Source: Basidiobolus heterosporus B8920
Lineage: Eukaryota > Basidiobolomycota > Basidiobolomycetes > Basidiobolales > Basidiobolaceae
Length of the DNA: 64,000 bases
NCBI GenBank assembly: GCA_000697455.1
Contig: JNET01035351.1
Span: 1-64,000 of the forward strand
Direction of reading: 5' to 3'
Made by a program: the position numbers and the translations under genes. Shown here one piece after another: positions 858 to 54,855 of this stretch; position 1 is the first letter of the stretch, and every line of letters starts with the position of its first letter. The notes under the pieces are model-generated. The model saw nothing but the letters and a program-made list of their open reading frames with translations. It ran no database searches and was not told where the DNA came from.

Positions 858-1717
858 TTGAGAGGGTCCCAGAAGGCAATGCTTCACTCTTGACCTGACT
901 CTTTGACATACTATAGCTCAACTGCAATAGTAAGTAGCCAGTGCAGAGAATAATTACTAGCTTGCTTTCAAAGTAGTCTCTCCCCTGCCTCCAAGATGCC
1001 AAGCTACTATCAAGCTACCTATTCATACACATATATACTGTACATCAAGCAAAGCAACTGCCAGTCATTCCATCACTTTCCTCTCAGCATCTATCAATAT
1101 TACTATTACTCATGCCCCCATCCCCACTAATTCTTGTACTTGGCCCCCAAGAGCTTGGCAAGCCTGCTTAAAATGATTTCAGTCTGTATACAATTGTCAA
1201 AAAGCTACACCAGTAGCATATGCCATCTTTGTTATGATTTATTGAAACAAAAATCTTGCCTGATAGTGATTACCAGCTCCTAAGCATAAGTCTAAGCAAC
1301 GTACACTCCGTGTTCATCATCACCCATGTTTCGACCTGACTGCTCCCTTGTGTGGTGATGGGTGAACATTTTTCCACATCATGTGTCAAGGAGATCCTAG
1401 TGCCCAGGCGTGGTATTTTGCACGCTTGGCATTACAAGCCAGCTACATAATATGGCATATTTTCATTAGGTGTATACAAAGAACCCTTCAATATATATAT
1501 TGGATGCAGAATAGCCTTCAACTGTTTCATCTGACACCCCTCTTGCGCATAACCTTGAGTGGTCTATCACACTCTGAAACGGCCATAATATGCTTTGACC
1601 AGAATGCAAGAGCCAAAACTGCGGAGTCAAGGAAATATGGTACAGCCACATTATGTGGAAGTTATAAAGGGAAAGAACAAGTATGTCCATATCTTCATTG
1701 ACCTGCCCTTCATTACT

Positions 1718-2290
1718 ATGATTTTCGTCAGCCAATCCCTGCAGCTAATTGGCATTGCTATCATTCTTTCGCAGCAATTTGTTGCCAGTTGGAAGCTCGA
1801 TAATGATGGTCCCTCAACGCTAGAACCAGAGGTTATGCACCTTGAAAGGCGAACTTTTTCATTTTCGTCTGGCCATGGTGGTGGTTCTAGCTCTCATAGT
1901 ATTGCAGGTGGTGGCTCTAGCTCCCATAGCATTGCAGGTGGTACGCCAGTTATTCTCGGCAATCCTCTTAATTTGGGAAAGAGTCACCAGGCGAAGACAC
2001 ATGGAGGGCATGGACATGGCAAAACTGGGCCTCGAGGCAAACAAGGGAAGCGAGGTAAACAAGGGAAACGGGGTAAACAAGGAAAGCGAGGAAGGCAAGG
2101 GAAGCAGGGGAGACCAGGCAGACCAGGCAAGACCGTGACCTATATTTTACCCACGTATCTTCCAAGCCCGAATCCTCCGACCTCTCCGGTCCCTAGTGCT
2201 GAGCCTTATGCTGACGGTGATTCTCTGCCTCCTCCAGCGCAAAGTTCCTACTCTGATGAGCCTGAGACTGAACATGGGAAAATGTACTAG
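1718..2290 (+). CDS. Secreted basic collagen-like protein
   Basis: Predicted 190-residue protein. I chose the ATG at 1718 rather than the start of the open frame at 1595 because it begins a good signal peptide: [12 protein letters not shown] followed by a hydrophobic core (IAIILS) and a likely cleavage near FVASW. After a linker comes a Gly/Ser/His region with a direct repeat of [10 protein letters not shown]. Then come twelve uninterrupted Gly-X-Y triplets (residues about 104-139, bases 2027-2134), nearly all GKQ, GKR, GRQ or GRP, so the tract is extremely basic. The C-terminus is Pro/Ser-rich, then acidic. Gly-X-Y tracts form collagen triple helices in animals, fungi and bacteria, but twelve triplets without hydroxyproline is short. 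An extracellular or surface role is inference. The tract is also a nucleotide tandem repeat, so length variation between strains is likely. No relatives are seen among its neighbours. Confidence 0.7.
2027..2134 (+). repeat. Tandem repeat coding Gly-X-Y triplets
   Basis: Twelve consecutive 9-nt units, largely built from the 18-nt pair GGNAARCAAGGNAARCGN (Gly-Lys-Gln-Gly-Lys-Arg), lie in frame inside the collagen-like gene. Confidence 0.85.
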
Positions 2291-7808: not shown

Positions 7809-10800
7809 TCATTTTTTGGGTGGTGGGTGCTGTTGGGGATATACTCCACTTGGATGTGGAAACATTCCGGGCATGCTCATTGGGTTCATAGGGCTCGAGT
7901 ATGCAGGGTTTTGATTAATCGGACTAGAGGTCATTGGGTGAAAGCCTTGAGAAGAGGATGGTGCTTGCATCGTCATATGAGGATGACGAGGGTATCCGGG
8001 TCCTAGAGGAACCACTGGTGATTGAGGTCTACGGCCATACTGGCTGGCATCCATAACTGAAGGTGACGTTGTGCGTCTATAGTGGCTTGGATCCATCATA
8101 GCAGGTGAAGCTGTGCGACGGATTTGTCCATCTAAAATAGCTGGCGAGGCAGTTCTATAGCTGGTTTGATCTAGGATAGCAGGCGACCCAGTTCTGAAAG
8201 GCGTGTTATCAAGCATAGACGAAGAATCTCGGTGTAAAGCTCTAGGCTGCTGTTCTTTCGGGATGGAGCCAGGTGGATATGCGAAAGCGCCATTGTTAGC
8301 CGCCATTTGGTTGAGTGGTGTCGAGGAACGATGTGGTGGTTGAGTGATTTCAAGATAACGTTGTCCAACATTATTTTCCCGGTTATCATAAGTATGCTGA
8401 TTGGATGCCATTTGAGGGGTCTGGCGGTACAGTGTCTGGCCAATATTTGGATTTTGTGTTGAATCGATAGGCGACGGTACAGCGGAATGATACCCTTCTT
8501 GAGGATGAGGTCCTCTTCGAGATTGGAAATTTCCCATTCCTTCCGATGCTTCTGATCCGGGATAAGCCTGCTGCTGGCTATGCCTTGTTTGCGCATAATT
8601 GAGATTCTCGGGAGGAAAGACAGCTTGTTGGGGGGATACAGATACTACTTCACGGGGATTTTGGGTGAATACTGGTTGGGACACATCACGGGAGCGTGAG
8701 ACTGGCACAGGAGTCGAATGACGAGTAGGCTGGCTAGGAAGTTGAGATGAGTGGGGTGAGTATTGTATGGATTGTGAGTGTAGCAGTGATGGGTTTGATG
8801 GTTTTCGTGAATGACCAATTGGTAAAGGCTGAAGTGGGCTAGAGGTCCTGCGAGGCTGGGATTGATGAGATGAAGGAAGATTCATTGCTGGTGACTGCGA
8901 ACGGGAATAAACAGTAGCTTGGTGAGGTATTCCAGGGGAAGGTTGAATTAGTGGATGACTTGGGCGATGATGAGGAATTGGTGCATGATAGCCAGATTGA
9001 AGGGAAGGTTGTTGATGTAGAGGAGAGTGGGCATACTGGGATGGAAGTGTAGAACCATCTACAGATTGGCCATTCGCTGGAGAAGAAGGGTGTTGGATTG
9101 GTGAGTGGGATATGATACGAGTATGAGGTGGTTGTGGCTGTATCTGAGGTTGAGATGGTAGGCGCGGTTTTGATTGCCGTGATTTCGATGATGCTCGAGA
9201 AGGCTTCAGAATTGGGCTTTGGCTTATCAGCTGGGTAATAGGCACTTGAGTATGAGACGAGGTCTGAATAGGTAAGTGACCTGAAGAAAGTTGACGTCCA
9301 TGTTGTCCATAATTGTACGATTGTATAGCTGGCTGGCCTTGGCTACCAGACCGATGTCGTGATTGCACAATATTCTGTGGTTGGTTATGTGCTTGTGCTG
9401 TAGCAGTTACAGAGGTGGTTTGTGATGTGCCTAATGTCACTGACTGTGATTGAAGCTGCAAAAGTTGTACCTGTGGTTGGATTGGTTGATTAACTTGCGA
9501 ATGTACCAATGGAGCTGGGCTACCTTGGTGCCTTGCCGTTTGTAATGGATCAACACCAGAGATCTGAGCGTTATCAACTGGTCTACGATTCGGTATTGCA
9601 CTAGAATTCAATTCATGCGCTGAAATCGAGTATGTTGCTTGACTATTAGATGCGATAGAGCGGGGATCCTGTGCATGAGAGTAAGGGCTTCTGGAGATTG
9701 TAGGTTGAGCTTGACTTGCAAGGGTAGGATTTGCATTGTATTGCGACTGAAAATAGCCTTCCTTAGTCTCGCTCGCACTAGGCGCATTGGATTGTTCCGA
9801 CGATGAAGCAGGACCGACATCCTCTCCAAACCAATCCATTAATGCATTCTTGCCCACCTTAACAGGCTGAGTCTCTTCTGAGGGTGCATTCAATAAAGAA
9901 AAAAGATCTGTGACACCCCTCGCTCGCTGAGCGACAGGTTTAGGCGTAGGTGTGGGTTCTTGGCGCTCTCCATCAAAGAATGCGGACTCCATCCTAGAAC
10001 TTTTCGATGAGGCTGAAAATTCTGATCTAGTCGGAGAAACCACTGGCACTTCTGGAGGTGCAGGATAGTTTAGGATCTTAGAGACAGATGACTGTCTTCT
10101 AGGTTCCCGTACAAGGTCATCTCGATAGAGCTCCGATTGGCTATGTGATGAGGAAGCCTTTACTGAAGTGACTGGCGATTGAGTATTTGTATGTGAATAA
10201 ACGGGTAATGCTTGATTCCCAACATTGGTTTGATATGCAATACTAGGTAAGGTAGACTCTAGTTTAGTTTGATCTGCTTTGTTACTATCAATCCTAGTAA
10301 TGCGAGAAACTGGTAGTCCACCAGTACTTGGTGTACGCTTGCCCGAAAGTATAGCAGGTTTAACCTCCGGGTTGGATAGCGGTTTTGGAATATTTCCCAG
10401 TGGCTGGTTTTCGTATGGATAATAAGATGTAGACTTGTCGGATACTGGAGCATGTACATTAGCTGATCCATTAGAATATTGAGCAGGTGAATAGTTGCTG
10501 GAGACCGATGATATAACCAATTGGGCTCTGGCCTCATCTGTTTTCGAATTAGAGTTGGCGCTCAGTTTGGGGTCAAACGTGGTCGACTGAGGAGAAAAAT
10601 TTGGACGATTGGTAATGCCGTATTGCTGTTGTGATTTGTGAGCATTGCTAGAAGCGATATTAGTTTGATGAACAGTTGAACGGTTTTCCCTTGGCATTTC
10701 CATTCTAAGTGTATCCATCGGATCTCCGGATGCCATGGATGTGTTGTGAGGAGAAGTACTGTTACTGGTTTCTTGGGAATTCTTACGATTACCCAGCAAG

Positions 10801-13800
10801 TTGGGTCGAGCTTGTATTGGTACTTGGGCACTCAATGACGGAACTTGGGAAGACCTTACATTTTGGTGTATTGTTGATGGAGCAGTCTCGTTGTACTTTT
10901 GAGTAACTGGTATCGTTTTTGAAGAATTGCCCAGTCGATCCTCCGAGTGTGCCATCGGTGACGCCATGATTTGGGAGAACGATGGACTATTATTAACTGG
11001 ATTAGTAGATGAGGATTGCTCAAGAGCTCCATGCATGGTGGGTGATTTGTTGGAGGTCATCCTGGTTGTAGCCATGTCTGATACCGAATATTTCCCCTGA
11101 GTGTAAGAAGATTTAGAGGTTGACGCTTGAGGTTGCTCAGATATACTATTCTTTGTAGTGGGTATTTGAGCAGATGGTGATCGCGTACTCGACAAAGCTG
11201 GCATAGATCCAGGTCGAAAATCAATAGGGTTTTCTTGAGCCGATTCAGAGAATGTGTGAACACCCTGATTAACTTCTGAACCATATTTACCCGACTCAGG
11301 TCTGATAGTCGACAATTCTTTATGCATCTGTGTGGGCGTAGTTTGTTGAGGATTTAGGATCTCTTGGTTTCTAGAGGCGAACGGAGCAGAGTATGCTGGA
11401 GTTGTCGTCCGCTCTGCTGATGCTAAGATATTATTAGATGATGCAAACCTCTCTTCTTGCCCAGTATTGCCAGTTGGTTTTTGGCTTGTTAACTCTGACA
11501 TAAAACTCGGGATTTCATTGGATCCAGGGACTTGATGTAACGCTGTGTTGGTCATAGATATATTCTCCTGTAGTAACTCAATAAATGAAGGATGTTCCTT
11601 CGAATTTATCAGAGTAGACGCGTTCACATCTAACACTTGGGTACTAAACTCGTTGTCACGAGCTTTTTGGATATGTGTTGTAGATCCAGACAATAAGTTT
11701 TCCGTCTCAACTATAGCCGGAGAAGACATACCCACTGGTTTTTGGCATTCATTGTCTGCAGGCTTAGAAATATCGCATCCAACTGAAGATATAATACCTA
11801 GATTGGTAGCCACATGGGCTTCAGCAGGTACAGAGTTCGTTTGTGAGGCAGATGAAGTACTGGCCTGGTCTTCTGTCGAGCCTTCATTAGTAGCACTCTT
11901 CTTTGTATTATAAGATTCCGCGTTCAATACAAGATTTTCTTCATCCTTTTTCGGTACTTGTGGGTAGGTCGTTGATGCAGGAACGGATGTTGCCAAATTA
12001 TCCATCAATTGGGTTTGAGGTAACCTGACTAAATTTTCCTCGAATTGTTTCACTACCTCCGCAAGTCCTAGTCGCTCGGCGCTGATAAGATAGTACTTTT
12101 CAACTTCAGAGGAATTTTTGGTTTTGATACGCTCAGCAATCTTAGCCCAATCTTTTCCATACATCCGAATAGACTCGACAAACTCGGTTTGTTCAAGAGG
12201 TGACCAGTTATCAGAGCTTCTTGTCGTTGTTTCCTCGGAAATGTTTTTATTCTCCTGGGCATCGTTGTCTTCATCGTCGTCTGAAGATGTGAATAGAAGC
12301 GCTCTATTAATTTCTTCTTCCAACAATGCATCTTCATCAATGGCTTCGCCTTTTTGATCCAATGTTTCCTCGCCATCTGAACTTGGTATATCGAGCGAAA
12401 GATCAAAATCTTCCACTACGGGTTGACTAGTGATATTTGTAGGCTGGACAGGTTCCTTTGGTAATGTAACCTCTGTTCTAGAATTAGAAGGGAGTGAGGT
12501 CTCACTAGATTTCTCCTCACTTTGACTAGAATTCGGTAAATGGTGATCAGTGGTACCGGATGAAGGTGCTATGAAAGCCGTACCCTGCTCTTCCACGATA
12601 GTTTCCTCTTCATCAGAACTGTCTTTGTCAAGAATGTCTTCAATAGCCGCGTTTACTTCATCTATAATATCAATCTCATCCTGAGAGAACAGCTCTTCCT
12701 TTTCTGCTAAAGAGGGTTCCATTTTCGCTTTTTTGATTTCTTGAGAATGTAATTCCTCTTTTTCCATACAAGGAGATACTTTTTTCTCTTGAGATGGTCT
12801 TTTTTGCTTGTCCTCCATAATAAACCCTTGTTTCTCGGCGGAAGGTGATACTTTCTTCTTCATTTGAGGCGAATCGTTCTTATCTTGCAAAGAGTTCTTT
12901 TTTTCTTGTACAGGCAGCATTTTCTTCGCTTGATACGGTAGCCCTTTCTTTTCTTGAACAGGTAGTTCTCGCCTTGATTGAATTGATGGAGTTCTTTTTT
13001 CTTGGAAGAATGGTGCCTTCTTCTGGGATGAGGATCCTTTCTTTTCATCTAGAGGATTTGTTTTGTGACTAACCTCCTTCTCGCTAGGCGCGAATTTTCC
13101 ACTTATGGGCTTCACAGGAATAGGTTTTGTAGACAGGTTTCGACTAAAACCTGGTTTGGCAACACTCGGTTTTCCAAGAACGGGCTTGTTAGGTTTAATA
13201 AACAACTTTCCTGTAGCACTTTCATTATGAGGCTTCATGCCAAACGGCTTGTGAGGCGCAGACCTAATATACGAGTTCTCAGAACCGCCGGGCTTTACCA
13301 TTGCAGCTTTTCCCACCGAGCTCTCAATCTTACTCGTAACAGATTTGCCACCAGGAGATTTTCCAGCTCCACTTCTAACGGAGGTTACTTCGTCTATTTG
13401 GGATTTTTCAGGGAGTTGCTTAGCCTGAGTAGAAGCGCCTGATGATATTTTCTTGGAAAGAGGGTTCTCCCCACTGGCAACTGATTTTTGCACAGGTGCG
13501 TTTTGAGTTGTGTCATTTTCTGCACTGGCTTCATCCACAGCTATATTTTGAAGAGGAGTATACTCAGTAGACAAATCTGAGCTCTTCTCGATTGGCGCTC
13601 TATCAGGCCGATCACTGCTCTTCACACTAGCGACATCTTTTGGTTTAACATTCACAGAGCCAGTAAACTCAGAAGAACTGTGAACGTTAACCTCTGGAAG
13701 CTTGGTTGGTGATTTAGTATCAGGAGACATACTAGAAGATTCGACAGTAGAATCTTCGGAGTGAACTAGACTTTGCTCTATGTGAGAAATAGTATTATCT

Positions 13801-16800
13801 GGCGTTTCCTTGAGCTTGCTATTGGAGTTTTGAGAAATTTCCTGTTGCATTGCTAGCTTGCCAAACTCGCTGGGCTGATCAGTATGGTTGTCAGCATTGG
13901 AAGAAACTGTAGTGATGTAATGAGTGCTTGGTTTGTCGGTAAAAACAGTTTGCTCCTCTTTCGTTCCTATCGAACTACCGGGGATATTAGAGCTAATGCG
14001 ATTCGAAGTATCCAGGAGGGTTTGAGAGGGGACCAATGAAACTGATTCTTGGACCTGTAAACTTGTACTAGCAATTTTCGATTTCAACTTGTCCGATTGA
14101 TGCTTTGCCGTTAGTTCCTTGATTGGTCTTGCGGCATCTAAGCCAGTATCAAGAGAAGATTCTTGGTCGAGATCAAACCGTGCTTTCTTTTTGAAGGTAG
14201 GCAAAGAATCAGGAAGATCCCCTAGTTCTTCAATGCCATGGGATCTCGAAGCAGCATCAATATCCTGAAGTAAGGCATTACCTTTGCTCTTATTACTTCC
14301 GGAGGTAGCAGTTTTACCAATCTCTTTACGAGTAGGTTGTCTTCGTTTTTTCCCACGGCCGGTAATCAATCCTTTGAAGTCTATAGATTTTTTCTCTCTA
14401 TAATAAAATAGAACGCATTGGCGGGCATTCTTGTGCTTGAGAAAGGAAGCGATTTTGCCGAACTGTTTAGGATACAAGAGATATTTCCTAATAAAGACAT
14501 CACGCTCATCTTTCGTCCATTCGTCTACTGGACCCGCACAATGGTAGTATTTGTAGGGATTTTCGACAAGATTATTGCGGTCATCATATTTAGTGAGTTC
14601 TCTTTTATAAGGATCCAATACCATCGGCGGTATTGTAGCCACTGTTCTAAGACATCTGGCATTAGGATTACGAAGTTCCTCGTTCTCAAGAGATTGAATA
14701 ATTTCTAGCAATTCTGCTTCACTTCGGACAGTATCGCTGTTGAAGGGTCCACCATGTCGTTGCACTCGGGAAACCGAAAGATTACTAGGACCGGAGGAAG
14801 ATAATAATTCGTCTTTGAGATACCTTCTTCCTTTTTTCTTCTCCTTGTGTTTATCCAATTTAATGATCCGAACTCTCCATGCTTCAAGGTACTGCTTATA
14901 CTTCTGTCTAAGTTCATTTTCCTTTTGCTCAAGTGAATCATATTTGTGACGCATATGATTGAACATCAGGCTACGGATTCTTTTATGTGACTCAATGTTT
15001 TCACAATAAAACGGATAATCTTCAAATTTCCGGAAAATAGGTCCTAACGAAGGTGGAACATTAGCCTGAACTAGCATTCGGTTTTCAGCGTATATCTTTT
15101 TGTGCAGTGCCAATTTTTTGGCTTTCTGTGGTTTTCCATTAGCTACTTGTGTACTATGAGCCCCATTTAACTCGATAATTGCCAGTTGTGGCTGTGACGT
15201 ATTCGTGGGCTCGGACTCTGGTTCCAGATTTTGATTTTCTCTTGAAATGTCTACCTCGTTGATTTGTTGTGCTTCAGTTGAACCGTTAGAACTTTCTATG
15301 CAGGACTGCTTGTTCTTTCGAATCTCAATTAAAAGCTCCTCATACCGCCCGATTTCGGAGTCGATTTTGTCAATCATCGCAAATATTTTTTCTTGCGTTA
15401 AAGAGCTATCCAAACTTGAAGGAGCCACCTCTTCTTCTGCTTCGTCTTGTATCTCACCAGGTTCGATAGCAGTGTTTTCGGTGAGTACAGCATTAGATTC
15501 CATGTCCAAAGCTTCAATACTCTCGGTGAGAATTGGCTGTGTGTGCACGGAAGAAGTTTCGGATTCACCCTGCTCAACAAGGGTATTATCAACTTCACCG
15601 TTGTTTTCGGGTGGGATCTCTGAAAGCTTTTGTTCGTCCTTACTATCCATAGGTAAAGGCTGAGTACAATGTTGAAGAATCTCGTTCGAGGAACTTTCTA
15701 CATTTGCGCTGTCACTGCTCACCGTCTTGACCTTAATACATTTTGGATATTTTACTTGTTCGGATTGAATGGACACGTTATCTACTCCAGTGCATGATCC
15801 GCTATCTACTTCAGACAAGAGATTTGACTTGACATTAGTATCAAGCTTGGATTCAATAGAATCTTTTAAACTATTGTCTAGCAACTTGTCAGATTCAATA
15901 TTCTGAGAAATTGTAGATTTGTCATCCAAAGCAGTCGGTTTATCAAGAATAGGATTACTTTTAGCATGATTAATATCAGGGGTCACTTCGTTGGAAAGCA
16001 CAGTCATGCTAATTTCGGATTCCATATCAGTCTCTTTTCGGGCATCACAAAGAGACACCATATTCTCAGAATCAGATTTAGACTTAACTGCACTCTCCAA
16101 CTCAGTGATATCAATACTCCCTGAACGAGTATCTGATTTAACTTCCGGTGGAGTGTTGACATCAGGTTCAGAACAATGAGGTAGTTCAGGTTCTGAAGCA
16201 GGTAGTGTTATGTTTACCTGAGTTGCCATACTGCCAGAGGATACTGGAGAACTTGGAATTTCCTTTTCCCCACTCTCCAAAACAGCATCGCTTCGCTGGA
16301 TCTCGTTAGATACAGTGTCAATTTCGCCAGGCTCCGGGGATTCTATAGATCCCTGCGGGGGGTTAGGAGCATGCAAGAGTACATCCTTCACATCAGATTG
16401 CTCATCTTTATCCTTAGTGGGGATGCTATTGGTGGTCTCAAGGTCTACATCTCCGACAAGATCTAGTTTTTCTGTATTCGTAGTATAATCGTGACTAAGC
16501 TTAGGACTGTTTCCGTTTGGTTGATCAACTTGTGTAACTTCTCGCGATTCAGACTTTGAACTTGGCTTCGATTCAGATATCTCGACCCGATTTAAATTCG
16601 ATTTCTTAGCACTAGAAGTATATGTTTCCCGTCTAGACCACTTCTCATTTTGTGCGTCATCTATAGAATCAGAAAGGTCTGAAACTCCTATTTCACCCTC
16701 TTCGAGCTGGTCAGAATACTCTTCCTCGTTGTGCCCTGTCACTGGAGGAACTAAATGCTGGTCGTCATTTAAATGCGGTTTTGATGTATAGTGAGTGCTA

Positions 16801-18691
16801 GGACTTGAATCATTTCTGGTGTTGGTCTGTTGGGACTTGTCCGATTTCTTAGTACACTTATTTACATAGTTTTGATCGGTATAAATCACTGTAGATGCGC
16901 GCCTTCCCGGAATATCTTGCGATTCAAATGCTCTCGTTTTGTGATCCTTACTCGGATGACGGTTGGACTCTTGGTTGTCACCTACTGGCGACTCCAGACT
17001 TTTTTCTCTTAGTATATCTCGAGGCTCGCCGTCGGGATCATCCTGCGGACTTGAATATACTCGACGTCTCTTTTCATCTCTCAAATCGTTTTCATTGGCT
17101 TGCTGTAAATCATGAGACTCCTCAGGGAGGATTGACGAAGATGACACTTCGCTGGAAGGTGAGTTCTCGCGAACACGCTTTCCATATGCCCCAGACGTTG
17201 ATGCTATTGGAGGATCTGTATGACTATTCTCATCTAGGGACTGTGTGGTGCTGTCAATTGAGTTGGTTCTGGTATCTCTGCCGCCTGCAATTCTACGCTT
17301 TTCTGTAGACCTTGTAGAATCCACACTGCTACTCCGGCGGTCAGGAGTAGCAGATCCGTGAGAGCCATGATAGGGTTCATTGCCCTCTTTTTTTCCAGGC
17401 ATTGGATTGGAATCTCTACGATAATCACGATATCCATCACCTGGTCGATATGTGTCGCCTTGCTCAAACCTACCAGTGGCGATATCCGATCTTTCCCGTT
17501 CACGAGGTCGCTCAGATTCCCACCTTTCTCGTCCTCGATTACGTTCCCGATTTCGCTCACGCTCCCATCTTTCTCGGTCTCTGTTCCGATCTCTTTCTCG
17601 GTCACGAATCCCAGGAAAGGGGTTGGGGCCTCTAGTGAGGTGATCTCTATTATCCATATGACGAGTAAAATAACTGAAATCTCCACTTCTGAAATCCCTA
17701 TATGGCATATTTCTACCTCCGTTATCTCGAATGGAGGAACCAGAGGGAGCTCGATTCATTTTCTCAAATGCTGTCGAAGGGAACATAGAAGCTCTCCCTC
17801 TAGAGTCTCGAGATCCGCCAAATCCTTCACTATGCTTTGGCCTTCCCTGTTATACATAATTAGTATTAATAAGTATATTATTGTATGTGATATCCTAATA
17901 ATTTCACATATTTCGCTACTAACCTCTCTGTCGACCATTCCAGGAAATACAATATCCATAGGAGCGATATCCGCACCTCCGCTGCGCATAAGAACATTAC
18001 CACTGGTAGGATCGCGGCTAATAACAATAGGAGGAGGACCGTTGGTATTGTTACGTCGATTAGCAAATGCTGACATTGAAGAATTGCTCCCCACTCCACC
18101 TAACCGCTTATTTTCTTCGAAGTCAGCGCCAGCGCGACGATTATGTGGATAAAATGAAGGAACAAAAGGGTGATTGGGCCCATGTGGTGGTGGCAATGGG
18201 CGATCTTCACGATGAAGCTCTCTGCCAAGAAAGATGCGATAAGGCTGGTGTACTATTATGAATTACTGATTGCTAAAACTGACCTATCATTTCTCCGGCG
18301 GAAACGGTCCTCTCTCTCTCGGTCTCTCCGATCATCACGTTCCCTTGAAGGTCTAATAGTACAAGGTATATTTAGATTATTCGAGAACTTGCTCATGGGT
18401 TGGTCACAAAGTATGATAGAAAAGAAACTTGATGGATGCTACAACAGAATATGAAATATGAAGTTACCTTGAGAAGTAAGGATCAAATCTAGAGTTTCTA
18501 GAAGGAGGATATGAAGGAGATTCAGTATGTGAAGAATTTTTTGGGTAAGGATTAGGGACGGGGGAATTTGAACGAGAACGGATAGGTTTAGTGGCGATAT
18601 TGGTCGTAGTGTGAGAAGGAGTTTCAGAAGTGGAAGATTTGGAATCTAAGGGTTTAGAAGAATTTGTTTGAGGTGATCGCCCGTGATCCAT
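7809..18691 (-). CDS. NCoR/SMRT/Snt1-type SANT co-repressor, long paralogue (3542 aa)
   Basis: Probable scaffold of a histone deacetylase co-repressor complex (SMRT/NCoR in animals, Snt1 of Set3C in yeasts). Exons 18691-18468, 18352-18284, 18221-17924 and 17846-7809 join in frame. The N-terminus is Ser/Pro-rich followed by RD/RE-rich stretches (about residues 255-320). A helical segment with FAMIDKIDSEIGRYEELL lies near 1015. SANT1 (about 1303-1358) is of deacetylase-activation (DAD) type: it has WTKDERDVFIRKYLLYPKQF and then FYYREKKSIDFK, whose YY-x-x-KK matches residues that bind inositol phosphate and HDAC3 in SMRT. SANT2 (about 2073-2125) starts WSPLEQTEFVESIRMYGKDW. The rest is predicted disordered, with a Lys/Gln repeat block (about 1807-1900) and a Gln/Ser/Pro-rich C-terminus with TASPA-type repeats. 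A shorter paralogue lies just upstream on the same strand. Confidence 0.88.
8030..8205 (-). repeat. Degenerate in-frame repeat, R-T-x-S-P-A/S-x-x-D
   Basis: Near the C-terminus of the long co-repressor, four to five units of 13-15 residues recur: RTGSPAILDQTSY, RTASPAILDGQIR, RTASPAMMDPSHYR and RTTSPSVMDASQYG. Each contains an SP dipeptide, so the array offers repeated proline-directed phosphorylation sites. Confidence 0.75.
12740..13020 (-). repeat. Degenerate in-frame Lys-rich repeat in the long co-repressor
   Basis: About nine imperfect units of 9-13 residues with the core (V/S)Q-E-K-K-x-x-P, for example LPVQEKKGLPYQAKK and RPSQEKKVSPCMEKEE. They encode a strongly basic, predicted disordered or helical stretch. 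The short co-repressor does not show it. Confidence 0.7.
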
Positions 18692-20802: not shown

Positions 20803-23800
20803 TCAATAATGAAGTGAAGGATGCATAGGCTGTGAGTAGCTTGGAGGGAAGGTCGGTGGTTTTTCGGGTGCTTGTTGAGCAGTACCAGACATATGGTACT
20901 GAGCTTGTGACGGTGATATCGTCGTGCCTGCCATCGATGGGCGTGTAGCTTGGTTGGTGTCAACAGAACGCCCCGATTGGCCAGGCAGTGGAGGGGAGGA
21001 CAAGCTGGATGGGGTAGGATGATGAGACAGATTTACTCGGGGAGAGTGGCGACTATGTGAGTTTTGTAGAGTAATTTGTGAAATAGGTTGTGATCCGGTA
21101 GTTGGGGGCGATTGGATCTGTAGTAACTGCAACTGCCGCACTGGCTGCGTTTCTCGTTGTTCAACAAATTTGCGTTCTATGTGAGAAATACTATCTTGTT
21201 TGGAGTGTCGTGGAGAAATGGTGCTTTCGAACGAGTGTACATTTGGAGGTATGTGGTATATTTCTTGTGCACGGAGGTAAGGCTTTTGACCTAGGCTCTT
21301 GGCTGCGTTTACTTGGGGAGAATCCAGAACTACTGGGGTTGAATGGCTCACATCTTCTTTAAATGATTGTCGTGGCGTGGCCTTGTGCTCTTCAGTTGCC
21401 AGATTCAGGAGGGAAAAGGCATCAACAGCCTCTGTCGATTGCCTCACTTGATCTGTAGATTCAAATTCTCTTACAGGTGGAGGATTAGTTGATCTCAACG
21501 GTAATGATTGACCGACATTTGCTAGTAAATCACTTGAATCAAAGGTGGGTCTTGGAAAGCATATTTGGGAGTCCCGTTGTATACCGGAAGTTCTCATACC
21601 AGCTGAATTGGTGCTAATGTCCGTGTGTTGTCTATCTGAACAGTCAATTGTCTTTTCTTCGTTCTTTGGAATTGTAATAGGATTCACAAGGTTACTGCAA
21701 GAATTGGTACTGGTCAATGCAGATGAAATTGGACTTGTACTCGGGATGTTCACAACAGCTCTCTTGGACAACTCAGCATCTTGGTTGAATGCTGCTTGAA
21801 CCAATAATCCTAGAAAGTTTTCAGATGGTGCCGACTGAGGTTTGGCTTCATGTAATGAGCTGCTAATGCCAGTTAAGCATTTTGTACTAACTGGAGAGAT
21901 TACCTGCTCAACATTAGGTTCAGACGTAAGAGGCGAGTCTGTGATAGTTTGACACCCACGGTTTCCAAGTTGGTTTTGATCAGATACTTGCTCTACTGAT
22001 GGATTTCCAGTAGGGTAAATCTCTGAGCGCTTTCGCTTTATTCTTGGTTGCTGGCGCTCAGATTTCAACGACTCGGCAGATGATTGCTGTTTCTGACTCG
22101 GTTTGCCTACCTGGGAATCGTTGGAAAATGATGCCACTTTAGCCTCACTCTCTCTTTCACAAGTCATCTCCAACGGTGCTTCCAAAGCGCTCATCCCATG
22201 TTTTCTACGGAAATTATAATAAAAATTTCGGCATTGCTCTTCCGTTTTGCTTCCGACCATCTTAGAAACAGAGTAGAAATCTTGACCAAATTTCTTATAG
22301 GCCTGGAGGGCAATATGCCGATCGTCTTCACTCCATCGAGCTGTGGAGGGTGAGGGTTGATGTGGAGCAGTTTTAATTTCGCTTTCCTCCTCCTCCTCCT
22401 CCTCATCAGGCAATGAATGTTGTCGCTGCTTAGTTCTAGACTTCCTACGGGATTTCTGAGATTCCGACAAGGTTGACTCGTCATCAAATCCTCTAGGTCT
22501 CTTCTTTTCTGAATATGGTGGAGAATCAGGTGGATCTTCAGAGATTTGTGTAGATCGTTCTGCCTCATCAATATCTTGAAGTAGAGCGTTGCCTTTGCTC
22601 TTCTTTTTTCTTCCTGCTCGTTTTCCCGTACCTTTACGTGCTAATTGACGTCTTTTCTTTCCTCGTCCTGAAATCAATCCCTTAAAATCGATCGACTTCT
22701 TTTCGCGGTAATAATAAAGGACGCATTGCCTTGGATCCTTATTTTTCAAGAATGAGGCGATTTTGCCAAACTGCTTTGGATAAAGCAAGTATTTCTTAAT
22801 AAAGATATCCCGTTCCTCTCTAGTCCACTTGTCAACTGACTTGTCGCAGTGATAGTAATTATATGGGTCCTCTACGAGATTATTACGATTGTCATATTTG
22901 GTTAGCTCTCTTTTGGAAGGATCTAAAATCATCGACGGGATAGTGGCTGCCCTAACCGATCTAACATCAGGGTTCCGTAGGTCCTCATGCTCAAGATATT
23001 GTATGATTTCCATTAGCTCTGCTTCGCTTCTTACAGCGTCAGCATTGTAAAAACCTCCCCGACGTTGTGAACGTGCCGATATTCCGTTGATATTAGAGGT
23101 GAGGAGTTCATCTTCCATGAACTGTTTGCTTCTCCTTTTCTCTCTCTTCCTATCCAGTTTGACGACACGAATCCTCCAATCCTCTAAGTGCTCTTTATAC
23201 TCCTGTCGAAGCTTGGTTTCTTTCTCCTCCAAAGTAGAAGCTTTTAATTTTAGATGTGTAAACATTAAATTACGAATCTTTTTATGGCTTTCGATGTTCT
23301 CCAAGTAGAAGGGATAATCTTCTATATTCTTATATACAGGCCCTGGAAAGGGCTTCACATTCGACTTGACAAGTGATCGATTTTCTGCATATATTTTTTG
23401 GAACAATGATGGCTTTTTTGTTTGCTGAGATTCATACTCACTACGAGAATGGCTGAGCTGTCCAGGCTTGTCTGGGACTATCGCAATCTCGGTCTCGATT
23501 CGTGAGATGTTTGCTACTCTTGGAGTGGATTCCTCTTTACAGGTTTCTATCGAATTCATACTTTCCTTTTTAACACTGTGACTGCAAAAATGATGATTCG
23601 AGTCTTCCATCTGAGGTGGGTCGTTTTCCATGCAAGACTGTTTGTTCTCTCGTACCTTCGCTAGTAGAGCTTCATAGTGACCGATCTCTGAATCAATGTG
23701 ATCAATCATTGCGAAAATCCTCTCTGTAGTTAAGGGGGTATTCTTCTCAGTGTCGGCCTCAGCTTCCGGTCGGTTTTCTTTCATGGTGGCATCAGAAACA

Positions 23801-26229
23801 GTATTGATGGTAGCGAGAGTGTCATCATCCTTTTCTTCATTAGCGTGTATTACTTTATCAACCTCTTCAAAGTCTTCGGCTTTGGCTTCATTTAACTTTA
23901 AAACCTCATGGTCTTTGAACTCATTGGGAAGGCCAAGCTCTGAAGCCTCGCAAAGCAGGTTTTTATTGGGCCCGTATGGTTTGATCTTCCAAGGCTCCTT
24001 TGCAGAAGGGGTTTCTCCAGCATTTTCAAATGCGGCCTCTAATACAATTCCACTTTCATGCTTTATACCTCGGGTCAGAGATGGAGTTACTTCGCACAAA
24101 TCCTTGGTTACTGCCAATTTTGTATTTTGTGGATCCGTTATGGCTTTAAAAGTTGCACTCGATTTGTTTATCTTTATCTCATCTGAATTTGGACTGCGCT
24201 GTGACTGGCATTCGAAGGTGGCTTTGTTGATAGCCAAACATTGCGGGTTATTCTTAGCTAGCTCATTTGACGTCTGTGATTGCTGATCTTTAACGAGCTG
24301 GCAGTTGATAGGTAGACTATTTAACAGTGCTCCACTAACGACTTCTGGTAGACAAGGTGCTTCACTTTTGATTTGTTCGGTTAGTGTTGATTTATCGCCA
24401 TCTTGTGATCCAGGTGGTTCAGGAGTACACGACTCGGATAAACTTGCCATGTTTTCTTTTTCTTTGTGGTTGCTTTTGTTGTCATATATTATAGCACCGC
24501 TTTGTGTAGATGTAGCTTGCTTTTCATTAATCAAGGTTGCTTTGGAAGGTGGTAAAGTCCTGTCAGGCTTGTTGAGGACTACCTCGTGGTGCTGGTGCAA
24601 CTTCTCATAAGTCCTTTCCTGAGAAGAGCGCTCGGTAGAAGCAGAATTATGCCTAGTACAGGATGAGTGTCGGCTACCATCGAATTCTCGTACAGATTGG
24701 CAGTTATTTTGAGATGCCTCACTCCGGGAGGGATTCCGTCTTCCGGGATATCTCGTAGATTCCACACTACTACTACGTCTTTCTGGTGTATGGGAGTTGC
24801 GTGAGTGAAAATAATAATCATAGGTATCCTTGCCGGCTGGCTCTCGTCGAAAGTCTCTATAGAAATCGCGCCGATATAAATCCTTCTCAAAATAATCTCG
24901 GCTCCGACTAGCAGGTCTGTAAGAATCCCCGTGCTCAAACCTAGTATACCATCTTATAGCATGAAAATCAATTCTAACACTTTTATGGGCATGGACTTTA
25001 CAAACCGATTAGATGATGCATCACGTTTTCTATCACGTTCACGTATCCTCTCCGAGTCCCATCGCGGACGTCCTTCATACGGATCCCAATCTCGACTTCT
25101 ATCGCGGTGCCTTTCCCACCTTGGTCGGTCCCGGTCTCGACTTCTATCTCTCTCCCATTCTCGGTCTCGAGAATTGCTAAAAGAGTCCGGTCCACGAGAA
25201 GGGCAATCCCTTGATTCCATGCCTCTCGAAAAATAGCTAAATTCATTACTTCTATAATCTCGGTAACTATGGCTTCGGTTTCTTTCGCGACTACTTCCAG
25301 ACCTATTGATCCTGTCGAAATTGTTGGACGAATAACCACGACCTCGTGAGTTTCGCGGACTTCCGAAGTTATCACTGTGCTTAGGTTGCCCCTGAGTACG
25401 GTATAAGTTAGCTTTTGTTTGAAAGGCTATATGATCATACAAGTATGTAAGTACCTCTCTTTCTCCAACATGCGGAAACATCGTATCTATATGGGCAAGA
25501 TGGGCTCCCTCGCTTCGCACGAGAACTTTTCCATTGTTTGGGTCACGACTAATTACGATCGGGGGTGGTCTGTTATCCTCACTTCGTCGATTATCCTCGA
25601 AAGTTGAAGTGACTGGGGAGGTAATATTTCCAAAATTGACCTCATCCGCATTAGCGCCAGCGCAACGGTTGTGACCATAATAAGAAGGGGTAAAGGAGTA
25701 ACTTCTATTTAAAGACGACCGTTCTTCTCGATGTACGTCTCTACTAAGGTCAAAAATGAGAGAAAATATTAACGTTAAGCCAAAAAAGAGATCTACTGAG
25801 GTTTACTGGTGTAATGCAAAAGCAGTCTTACCTGTCAGCTCGATAGCGATATGGATCTTCACGCTCTCTTCGGTCTTCTCGATCTCTGGAAGTACGACTA
25901 GTAATGCACAACAGTTGGTTATAATAAGTAATTGGCAGTAAAATACTGAAGGCAATGCATGATGGGAAAAGAAGTGTGAAGAAAGACCACAAAGAGTAAA
26001 AGTACCTGGGAAATCCGTAGGGCTCAAAACGCCCTCTATTTGGCTGATAAGAAGATAGGTCTTGCTTTACAAGCTTGGAGTTTAATTGCTCAGGAAATAT
26101 ATTTTCAAGGTTGACTCGAGCATCTCTGTTTTCAGTTGACAAGAGATTGACTTGTGAAATAGCATATTCGCTATTTTTCTCATCTACTGGAAGGATAGAG
26201 CGTGCTTGAAAGGGGTGTCTAGTCTCCAT
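20803..26229 (-). CDS. NCoR/SMRT/Snt1-type SANT co-repressor, short paralogue (1699 aa)
   Basis: Paralogue of the neighbouring long co-repressor. Exons 26229-26006, 25897-25832, 25740-25455, 25391-25006 and 24940-20803 join in frame. The first exon is 224 nt in both genes and ends at equivalent residues (RFEPYGFPR versus RFDPYFSR). The next two junctions also match in place and phase (…GERE|GQPKHS versus …VDRE|GRPKHS). The intron before FEHGDSYRP is absent from the long gene. The N-terminus has RD/RE repeats, a FAMIDHIDSEIGHYEALL helix lies near 723, and DAD-type SANT1 (about 1019-1071) has LYYYREKKSIDFK. SANT2 (about 1183-1234) has RWSEDDRHIALQAYKKFGQDF. The C-terminus is Gln/Ser/Pro-rich. 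Both key YY-x-x-KK residues are kept, so it should bind a deacetylase like its sister. Confidence 0.87.
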
Positions 26230-51262: not shown

Positions 51263-52591
51263 ATGCCGACTTTGGGCCATATTGCGTCCTTTACTCCGAA
51301 GTACCCTCGGAAAGTAGTAAGTCTTTTGTTATGTACGTTCCTCTAATCTCTCCCACTAACAAGCTGTCTTTGGCAGATGTCCTTTACTCGATTTTACAAC
51401 GTTGCAACCAATCAAGCTCATTTCTACAACAATCGTGTTCTTGATAAATATCTCCTACAACCAAGTCGGAAGTTGACTTTGCGTCAATTGCTATTCTATG
51501 GTCGTAATCTAACCGAAGAACGAGTCATTAATAGTGGTAACTATGTTAGAACCGAGCTTCCCGTAAGATTGGCTCACAAGATCAGAGATATGCAGAATCT
51601 TCCGTTTATCACGGCCACAAACCCCCACCTGGAAACTGTGTATAACCTTTATTGGCTTGCGTTCGAAAAATTTCGAAAAGTCCCTAAAATCACCAATATG
51701 ACTGAAAACCAGCATTTTTGTGAACTTCTGAAAAGCCTCTTGGAAGAGCATTTATATGTGCTCCCAAAACTAGCGATATTCTGTTCCGAAAGCTCCCCTT
51801 ACCTAGCCAGACAACACCTGGACCACTTCATGAATGAGATACTTCGCTCTCGAATTTCTCGTCGTGTTCTTGCTGAGCAGCACATCGCCATCTCAGATGC
51901 TCTAGAAAAACCTCACCTCGAAACACAAGTTGATAGTATCGGGATCATACGTCCTCGTTGTGTTGCCAGTGAAATTGTTCAAAAGTGCGCCGATTTAGCT
52001 AGGTCGGAGTTCAAAGAGGCCTATGGTGTTGCCCCGCAAATCCACATCAATGGGCATTTGAATACAATTTTCCCTTATATTCCGGACCATGTTGAATATA
52101 TTATACATGAGCTCTTGAAGAATTCCATCAGTGCTGTTGTCGACAAACATGGCGCACGTGAGTGTCTACCGGATGTTGTGGTCACCATCTGCGAAGGAGA
52201 AAAAGATGTAATCTTCCGAGTTTCGGATCAAGGTGGAGGTATCAACCAAGAAGAGTTGGCTACCATTTGGTCCTACGGATGTAACAAAGTGAAATCCGCG
52301 AATTTCGAAAAGGTTCCCAAGATGGCGGCCAAAATGACTGAGAGTAGCCGAGTGGTGTCGCCTTTATTAAAACTGGGGATCGGCCTACCAATGTCACGGG
52401 TCTATGCTAACTATTGGGGTGGGCGTCTTGATATGAGTACGATGGAAGGCTTTGGCACAGATGCCTACCTTCACCTTTGTAAATTGGGCAACCTGCCTGA
52501 GAACATAGACTTTGATGAATCCATGGGGTACATGAGTCCAGTCACAACAAGTAAACTTGCACTGAAGCAGACAACCGCTGTTTACAGGTGA
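51263..52591 (+). CDS. Mitochondrial PDK/BCKDK-family protein kinase
   Basis: GHKL-fold kinase of the mitochondrial matrix that phosphorylates and inactivates the E1-alpha subunit of pyruvate or branched-chain 2-oxoacid dehydrogenase. A short first exon (51263-51316) joins 51377-52591 in frame, 422 residues. Motifs: N-terminal helical region with LTLRQLLFYGRNL, the N-box HELLKNSISAVV, G1 DQGGGI, G2 GIGLPMSRVYANYWGG, and GFGTDAYLHL before a short tail. A spacer of about 35 residues between G1 and G2 (WSYGCNKV…SPLLKLG) is typical. Motifs such as INGHLNTIFPYIPDHVEYI lean towards the BCKDK/fungal Pkp1 side, but I cannot separate the two by eye. The presequence is not strong; the first exon may supply it. 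Confidence 0.88.
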
Positions 52592-52730
52592 TCCTAAAGT
52601 ACGCATTATCTTAGCCCGCCGTGTCATGGCCACGCTGTAGTTGTAGTAAATAACGATCACTCTAGCATTGTACAGGAGTAAACCTAATAACCAGAGTAAT
52701 ATTTATTAAGTATTAAATCTTTTACTAATA

Positions 52731-52818
52731 TAAATATACGGTCCATTCTATCTAGTCATATAAATATATGGTGGATACTATCTAGCAACATAAATATATA
52801 GTGCGTTCTATCATTCAA
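52731..52818 (+). repeat. About 30-bp tandem repeat, three units
   Basis: Three imperfect units begin ATAAATATAYGGT or ATAAATATATAGT and end TATCTAG or TATCATTCAAC. They lie just past the stop codon (3' side) of the secreted peptide precursor. Confidence 0.7.
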
Positions 52819-52819
52819 C

Positions 52820-53221
52820 TTATTTGGCATGCATGCAAGCCCACCATCCACAGTAATAGCGCATGTTCCAGAGACGTTTAAATAGACTATTGTTGGCATC
52901 AGTGGCTGGGTTTAGTGACGATTCAGAAAGGGTGGATGGGGCTTTGTCGCAGTCGGAGATTGTGGACGAAACTTGGGGTTGTCCATGAGCACTGACACAA
53001 CTATCCTCTCTATTCCAGGCTCTATTACCTATACGTACGAATTGCTCCAGGGTTTCAATCTCTGTTTCATTGACATGCTCCTGCGACATTTCGGGGTGAG
53101 TAGCGACAATCGAGTACAGCGTTTCCAGTCCATTGATAGGACCAGGTGTGGGTAAGGCGTCACACTTGTAAACAAAGCATAGAGCTACGATAGTTACTGA
53201 GATAAGAGCAGTGATTCTCAT
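52820..53221 (-). CDS. Secreted precursor of a KR-released Trp/Cys-rich peptide
   Basis: Predicted 133-residue secreted protein. The ATG at 53221 gives a classical signal peptide (MRITALISVTIVALCFVYKC, cleavage near DA-LPTPG). An in-frame upstream ATG at 53395 would place this segment internally and is less likely. The middle is polar and acidic with low complexity (NETEIETLEQF, SSTISDCDKAPSTLSESSLN) and looks like a propeptide. The last residues are a dibasic KR followed by LWNMRYYCGWWACMHAK. The KR fits Kex2/furin processing, which would free a 17-residue peptide whose two cysteines, four residues apart (CGWWAC), can close a small ring. Fungal peptide pheromones and other Kex2-processed peptides share this layout. 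No family is recognised. It is divergently paired with the serpin gene. Confidence 0.6.
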   Translation of the reverse strand: MRITALISVTIVALCFVYKCDALPTPGPINGLETLYSIVATHPEMSQEHVNETEIETLEQFVRIGNRAWNREDSCVSAHGQPQVSSTISDCDKAPSTLSESSLNPATDANNSLFKRLWNMRYYCGWWACMHAK

Positions 53222-53636
53222 GATTCTGAAGAGAAGAGTGAGTGTAATGTCTAATAGGGCTAAGATATCGACAATACTTATAAGAACCCTCTTGCTAGTT
53301 CTAAGAATCTTACTTAAGCAGTGATTTCTTTGAAAGATTTCGGCCACTCTTTCATTTCGAATATGAGCATTGTTGAAACTGGCAGTAATGTACATTATTC
53401 TTATATTATCCCTACATTATCCCCCCTACATGATCCCTACATTATTCATAGGTTTGTAATGATTCTCGGATGATTCTCGGAACGACTGATCTATGTATCT
53501 GATACTTGGCACAAGTTTCAAGTGTCACAGAAAGTGATTGGTTATTCTTGAATGTGACAATCAGGTACTCAATTTTAATAAATTGCTGATTGTTGTTAAC
53601 ACCATGTTAGTTACACTTATTACCCGTAACGTGGTC
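53222..53636. other. Divergent promoter region with short repeats
   Basis: Sits between the secreted peptide precursor (-) and serpin 1 (+). It contains repeated CCCTACATTAT/CCCTACATGAT blocks (about 53409-53445) and a doubled ATGATTCTCGG (about 53458-53480). No gene other than possible upstream in-frame extensions of the two neighbours. Confidence 0.5.
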
Positions 53637-54855
53637 ATGACTGTTAACGCGACATTAGGCACGCTGGTGTCTTCGGTGGGGGTGAATTTGGTTGAATCTC
53701 TGCAGGAGAGCGTCAATCCTACCACAAACATTCTGTTCTCCCCACTCTCCATCTTTGCCGCACTCTTCATGTTGCTCTTTGGCACAGCTGAGATGAGACA
53801 AAGTCGATCTGAGCTTCTTCAGTTCTTTGGATCAGACGACTCTCATAGCAGCTCTCTACCACATCTCGCTGACTCCTTTCATGACTTTGTCCAAACACTG
53901 CTGGGTGACCACGAGGGTACTAAAGCTGCGGAGAGCCATAACGCAACCTTCTTACTTGCTAACTCTTTATGGGGGAAACACTTCAAGCAGGACTACATCG
54001 ATCTGGCCAAGAAGAAGTTTTTTGCATCGGTGTTCCCACAGCTTCCGACTACAAAGAAGGTGAACGACTGGGTGGCGAAGAACACCGAGAATCATATCAC
54101 TGGGATCCTTCCACCAGGATTTTCCCTAGACCCGCAAAGCTTGTTGCTTGTTAATACAGTTTTCTTCCATGGGATGTGGAAGAATGAGTTCAAGGCCAGC
54201 CAAACCCAAGAAGAAGAGTTCCAGACACTAGAAGGGGACCCGATCAAGACAATGATGATGAACTCATACAACGCCAAGTGGAGCTACGATGAGAATAGCA
54301 AGTACCAAGTGCTAGATATGCCGTATACTGATGATCGGTTCGTAGCTACAGTGGTGTTGCCACGCGGAGTGCAATCCTTCCCTGACTTCACGAAGAGCCT
54401 GGACCCTGAGGACTGGTCCACCATCTTCAATGGGAATAGGTACAAGCACAAAGTGAACTTAGGCCTACCCAAGTTTGATCTCGAGCAAGATATGAAGTTG
54501 AACCAAGTGTTGAAGAAGGCAGGAGTAGAGGAGATATTTGGAGGCAATGCTGAACTTAGTAACCTGTCAGAAGAACTCATGTACGTTAGCGATGTGTTAC
54601 ACAAATGTCGTATCGAGGTTGATGAAAAAGGTATAGGTATATCATAAAGATGTCTGGAGATCCCGACGTACTCACTGTCATTTTACAGGCTCTAAGGCTA
54701 GTGCCGCAACTGCAGTTGTGATTCAAGCAAAGGCTTCAATTATAACAAGGAAAACACCAGAAATGCGATGTGATCGACCGTTTTTATTTGTTATTCGAAC
54801 CAAGTTTGGCGTACCAATGTTTGTGGCTTATGTATCGAAGCCTAAAAGTTCTTGA
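53637..54855 (+). CDS. Serpin, inhibitory type (copy 1)
   Basis: Serine (or cysteine) protease inhibitor of the serpin fold, 386 residues, exons 53637-54630 and 54689-54855. Marks: NILFSPLSIFAALFMLLFGT, LANSLWGKHF, VNDWVAKNTENHI, LVNTVFFHGMWKNEF, VLDMPYTDDRFVATVVLP, a hinge EKGSKASAATAVV with small residues P14-P8 as in inhibitory serpins, and the terminal CDRPFLFVI and GVPMFVAYV. By hinge counting P1 falls on Lys in VIQAK-ASII, but the loop is about five residues longer than in alpha-1-antitrypsin, so P1 could be the nearby Arg or Lys (ITRKT). The single intron lies inside the hinge Gly codon, so the second exon carries the whole reactive loop. No clear signal peptide; an in-frame ATG at 53604 would add 11 residues. 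A near-identical copy starts at 63809. Confidence 0.9.

Follow-up and report, generated by a model that had tools for sequence, protein, structure and literature searches.

A putative Kex2-processed precursor of a two-cysteine ring peptide in Basidiobolus heterosporus

The precursor ORF and its surroundings

The window analyzed here is a stretch of 64,000 nucleotides, positions 1 to 64,000 of contig JNET01035351.1 of Basidiobolus heterosporus B8920. On its minus strand, an open reading frame (ORF) translates into 133 residues from an ATG at 53221 to a stop codon at 52820–52822. This putative precursor gene of 133 codons and a stop (52820–53221, minus strand) was defined by its ORF reading and its synonymous codon use. 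The reading frame around it is open across 198 codons.

The N-terminus of the precursor, MRITALISVTIVALCFVYKCDA, is signal-peptide-like according to a simple home-made rule (not SignalP). Residues 1 to 22 (53156–53221, minus strand) comprise the signal peptide predicted by this rule, and cleavage would occur after CDA. The acidic pro-region that follows (residues 23–114; 52880–53155, minus strand) carries two N-glycosylation sequons, Asn51 and Asn110, and two cysteines, Cys75 and Cys91, so that other disulfides are possible. A KR at residues 115–116 (52874–52879, minus strand), in the context S-L-F-K-R, is the sole dibasic site in the whole precursor. The C-terminal 17-mer behind it, LWNMRYYCGWWACMHAK (52823–52873, minus strand), is the predicted released peptide, and its final K is possibly trimmed. 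Five of its 17 residues are aromatic. Its calculated MH+ is 2216.944 with the disulfide closed and 2218.959 in the reduced form; the values after loss of the last Lys would be 2088.849 and 2090.865, respectively. Its two cysteines, Cys124 and Cys129, have four residues in between, and the segment CGWWAC (52835–52852, minus strand) is predicted to form a six-residue disulfide ring. The 94 residues after the signal peptide, KR included, contain 13 acidic versus 6 basic residues, corresponding to a net charge of −7 for the pro-region, whereas the 17-mer has a net charge of +2. The earlier note had described a signal peptide, a pro-region, one KR and a C-terminal peptide with two cysteines, and this layout is indeed present in the minus-strand ORF. 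A single-sequence AlphaFold model of the precursor was uninformative (mean pLDDT of 39.5), with a helix and no hairpin over the peptide.

The neighboring gene at 51377–52591 encodes a mitochondrial alpha-ketoacid/pyruvate dehydrogenase kinase according to Pfam. Between the precursor and kinase genes, a 30-base unit is repeated 2.9 times at 52727–52812, 7 bases past the precursor stop. On the other side, a serpin gene with one predicted intron (53604–54855, plus strand) starts 383 bases from the precursor ATG in the divergent orientation. A 5′ stretch of the serpin gene (53643–53994) is repeated at the contig end (63815–64000, plus strand) with 95.5% identity over 354 columns; the precursor gene lies wholly outside this repeat. 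Two more serpin places were found on contigs C305 and C179. An ORF beside the C305 serpin has multiple membrane spans and is receptor-like by eye, and it gave no Pfam match at E 0.01. A partnership between the serpin and kexin was considered and is not supported, as the reactive loop, judged by eye across the predicted intron, points to a single Lys (or nearby Arg) and not to a KR-type site as the target.

Elsewhere in the window, the ORF at 1595–2290 (plus strand) has an internal Met with a hydrophobic segment behind it, as well as collagen-like GKQGKR repeats, a number of which include KR. It might be a Kex2-site repeat protein or simply collagen-like. Two large minus-strand ORFs next to each other, 7809–17786 and 20803–24765, have long similar stretches in common, for example KSKGNALLQDID, and by eye resemble chromatin-type proteins arranged as a tandem pair.

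Coding evidence and rarity of the layout

Plain codon log-odds were calculated from confident-gene segments against the rest of the window, the latter including the precursor ORF and unannotated exons. The result was ambiguous: three of the 67 coding segments scored no higher than the precursor, and 30 of the 464 "noncoding" segments scored as high. The 17-mer end pulls the plain score of the precursor downward. Per codon, this test gave −0.20 for the extension to an earlier ATG and +0.05 for the residues ahead of the peptide, and the low score of the upstream extension favors the start at 53221.

Synonymous codon use, with amino-acid choice removed, gave 6.6 bits for the precursor. Random synonymous codons gave −6.7 ± 4.6 bits, and 1 of 1000 recodings reached the score of the precursor; the coding model expects 5.9 ± 3.8 bits. 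Per codon, the synonymous score was 0.0495. The 34 long ORFs used to train the model averaged 0.053, and 19 of them scored no higher than the precursor. Two of 17 shadow ORFs also reached the synonymous score of the precursor, and its frame ranked 44th by this score among 117 shorter ORFs outside the long ones, coding or not. Taken together, the evidence that the precursor ORF is a gene is moderate.

We scanned for the layout of the precursor, defined as a signal peptide, a last KR or RR located 8–40 residues from the end, and exactly two cysteines thereafter. ATG-started readings of 60–250 residues were scanned with nested starts counted, and the criteria were set after the precursor had been seen. 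With these post hoc criteria, one of 979 readings from this genome matched; the scan covered 294,783 bases, of which 8,094 were counted twice and 286,689 were distinct. In 3 Mb of simulated DNA, the same post hoc criteria were matched by three of 4157 readings, none of which had 120 residues or more.

Search for relatives and for processing genes

The earlier note had matched the CGWWAC ring to no fungal pheromone, urotensin or somatostatin-type peptide, and the protein, Pfam, NCBIfam, PDB and phage searches were likewise all empty. Comparison of the precursor with the protein database yielded 38 candidates, none at E ≤ 10, and the C-terminal 40 residues gave no candidate with three 5-residue words in common. 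No match to the precursor was found in Pfam, NCBIfam or PDB (all at E 10) or among phages (E 1). The Pfam search at E 10 returned no families for the precursor or for its last 21 residues, for which short-peptide profiles are weak tests.

The neighboring kinase gene indicates how these results can be read. Among the best 120 of 933 matches to the kinase, the top three were two B. meristosporus proteins with 79 and 83% identity and a B. ranarum protein with 80%; the next match after Basidiobolus among these 120 was from Acaulospora, at 52%. The database thus includes annotated Basidiobolus proteins, and an annotated close relative of the precursor should have surfaced. A relative that is unannotated would escape the protein search. 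As no relative was found, there is no sign of selection on the KR or the ring cysteines.

A second copy of the precursor was not found in 8.1 Mb (428 contigs) of this genome, which we take to be only part of it. Besides itself, the full precursor gave one weak match, on contig C396 (31 residues at E 0.02, interrupted by a stop), which was rejected, since by eye it lies in stop-ridden DNA and has neither a signal peptide nor a KR. The DNA pattern for C-x-W-W-x-C occurred at 11 places including the precursor, versus six for the reversed control pattern. Eight of the other places were read, those on C352 and C372 being left out, and all were rejected; only one has a Met ahead of the motif in its frame, which runs for 15 residues from that Met. 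No description of the precursor gene appeared among the literature matches listed, and the parts available of the literature found on pheromones of the genus contained no Basidiobolus peptide signal.

The proprotein-convertase P domain was detected at three places in the 8.1 Mb, twice on C213 and once on C174. Two of these places were checked, and in each case subtilase S8 matches lay in frames beside the P domain. Judged by these domain matches, predicted kexin-type protease genes are present in this genome. A serine carboxypeptidase S10 match on C241 was fragmentary and partly had stops inside. Searches of the 8.1 Mb for STE2, STE3 and 7tm_1 were empty and the search for UstYa (DUF3328) gave no matches; the controls were likewise empty, so these results carry no weight.

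Comparison with known systems and interpretation

In the available portions of two surveys, the definition of Kex2-processed repeat proteins (KEPs) calls for three or more repeats with Kex2 sites between them (PMC7329392; PMC6339444). The precursor resembles KEPs in having a signal peptide (by the home-made rule), a Kex2-type dibasic site and a short, predicted secreted peptide, but differs from them in its one dibasic site and one C-terminal peptide, which fall short of the three repeats. B. meristosporus CBS 931.73 is listed with 43 KEPs, the most among 1461 surveyed fungal strains, and more than half of its KEPs are duplicates or of shared types, according to the part of that survey at hand (PMC7329392). 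This abundance suggests that the genus uses the Kex2 route heavily, so a Kex2-made peptide in this fungus is unsurprising.

Ascomycete alpha-type sexual pheromone precursors have a signal peptide, and their peptides are released by Kex2; the examples available in one survey include precursors with one peptide only and peptides with a pair of cysteines (PMC6339444). Since one-peptide precursors of this type exist, carrying a single copy does not speak against a pheromone role. The likeness of our precursor to those of ascomycetes lies in the predicted signal peptide and predicted Kex2 release. The differences lie in the ring spacing, with four residues between the cysteines here versus six in two two-cysteine alpha-type peptides, and in the letters common around the cysteines of alpha-type peptides, which by eye are absent from the peptide described here (both from the available examples in PMC6339444). 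Furthermore, no XA or XP dipeptides follow the KR, and the fungus is not an ascomycete. The precursor would work like a KEP or an alpha-pheromone precursor, yet it lies outside both groups as they are delimited.

The leader of yeast alpha-factor contains glycosylation sites and SLDKR. It is the closest functional parallel, which the pro-region and the SLFKR of the precursor resemble. The animal hormones urotensin II and vasopressin/vasotocin share the prohormone layout, the dibasic site and the Cys-x4-Cys ring, and urotensin II also has a Trp at ring position 3, as does the precursor peptide. In contrast, the peptide has neither the Trp-Lys core of urotensin II nor the N-terminal Cys of vasotocin, and no animal neuropeptide or hormone family of Pfam matched at E 10. 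What is unusual in the precursor is the combination of a single copy, a ring and no relatives.

These data are best explained, in our tentative view, by a Kex2-released, disulfide-ringed extracellular peptide that most likely serves as a signal on the fungus itself; we consider this reading to fall a little short of an even chance. Its expression, cleavage, ring and function are deduced from the DNA. The signal peptide would route the precursor into the secretory pathway, where the acidic, probably N-glycosylated pro-region would keep it soluble. A late-Golgi kexin protease would cut after SLFKR, and the freed 17-mer would close a Cys-Gly-Trp-Trp-Ala-Cys disulfide ring. A Kex1-type carboxypeptidase may take off the C-terminal Lys. 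The ring peptide would then serve as an extracellular signal, with the fungus as its likeliest target. This reading is based on the layout and its rarity, the single dibasic site and the synonymous codon use at the long-ORF average, together with the P-domain and S8 places, the fragmentary S10 match, the heavy KEP use in B. meristosporus and the likeness to the yeast alpha-factor leader. It is weakened by the ambiguous plain codon log-odds, the lack of a relative and the two further cysteines. Of the reading proposed in the earlier note, the precursor layout, an early-diverging fungus as its owner and the lack of a detectable relative stand, and kexin genes are present; transcription, Kex2 cleavage, the disulfide and the signal role are what we infer. 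The mating or quorum signal considered in the note gained no independent support.

A released peptide could instead act on other organisms. As an antimicrobial or host-acting peptide, the aromatic, mildly cationic, ringed 17-mer would be held inactive by the acidic pro-region until the Kex2 cut and would then work against gut bacteria or on the animal. The aromatic content and the charge of the 17-mer, opposite to that of the pro-region, are consistent with this idea, as is the description of Basidiobolus as an amphibian gut symbiont whose secondary metabolism was partly acquired from bacteria, taken from the available part of PMC7466969; gut bacteria are a presumed target. However, the net charge of +2, or +1 without the last Lys, is low for a membrane-active peptide, and the peptide is single-copy and has no family similarity in Pfam. 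We regard this function as possible though unlikely, and a self-signal as the more likely role of a released peptide. Basidiobolus is also known from reptile guts. A host-directed ring hormone, which a Basidiobolus of amphibian and reptile guts would release to act on a peptide receptor of the animal and which would have arisen in the fungus independently of the vertebrate hormones with six-residue rings, seems very improbable.

Other explanations dispense with the released peptide. The ORF may encode a small secreted protein that stays uncut at the KR, in which the four cysteines beyond the signal peptide (Cys75, 91, 124 and 129) pair within the whole protein and the KR is incidental. The even number of cysteines would suit such a protein, and by our own estimate a single KR in some 110 residues is no rarity by chance; nevertheless, the sole dibasic site lies just ahead of the aromatic Cys-ring tail and follows a stretch that is acidic and carries sequons, an order typical of prepropeptides, and we find an uncut protein doubtful. 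A chance reading frame between two real genes would account for the empty searches of a database in which proteins of B. meristosporus and B. ranarum are annotated, for the ambiguous plain codon score, for the shadow ORFs that reach the synonymous score and for the three shorter look-alikes in simulated DNA. Against it, the synonymous score is at the mean of the long ORFs and was reached by one random recoding in 1000, and the simulated look-alikes are all below 120 residues; we find a chance frame improbable.

Both KEP surveys, in their available parts (PMC7329392; PMC6339444), count proteins with three or more repeats, which places precursors with a single copy, such as this one, outside them. 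If the secreted ring peptide is real, the precursor supplies an exact peptide mass and a target gene in Basidiobolus. It would then represent an orphan peptide of an early-diverging fungus, an undescribed secreted signal or defense peptide.
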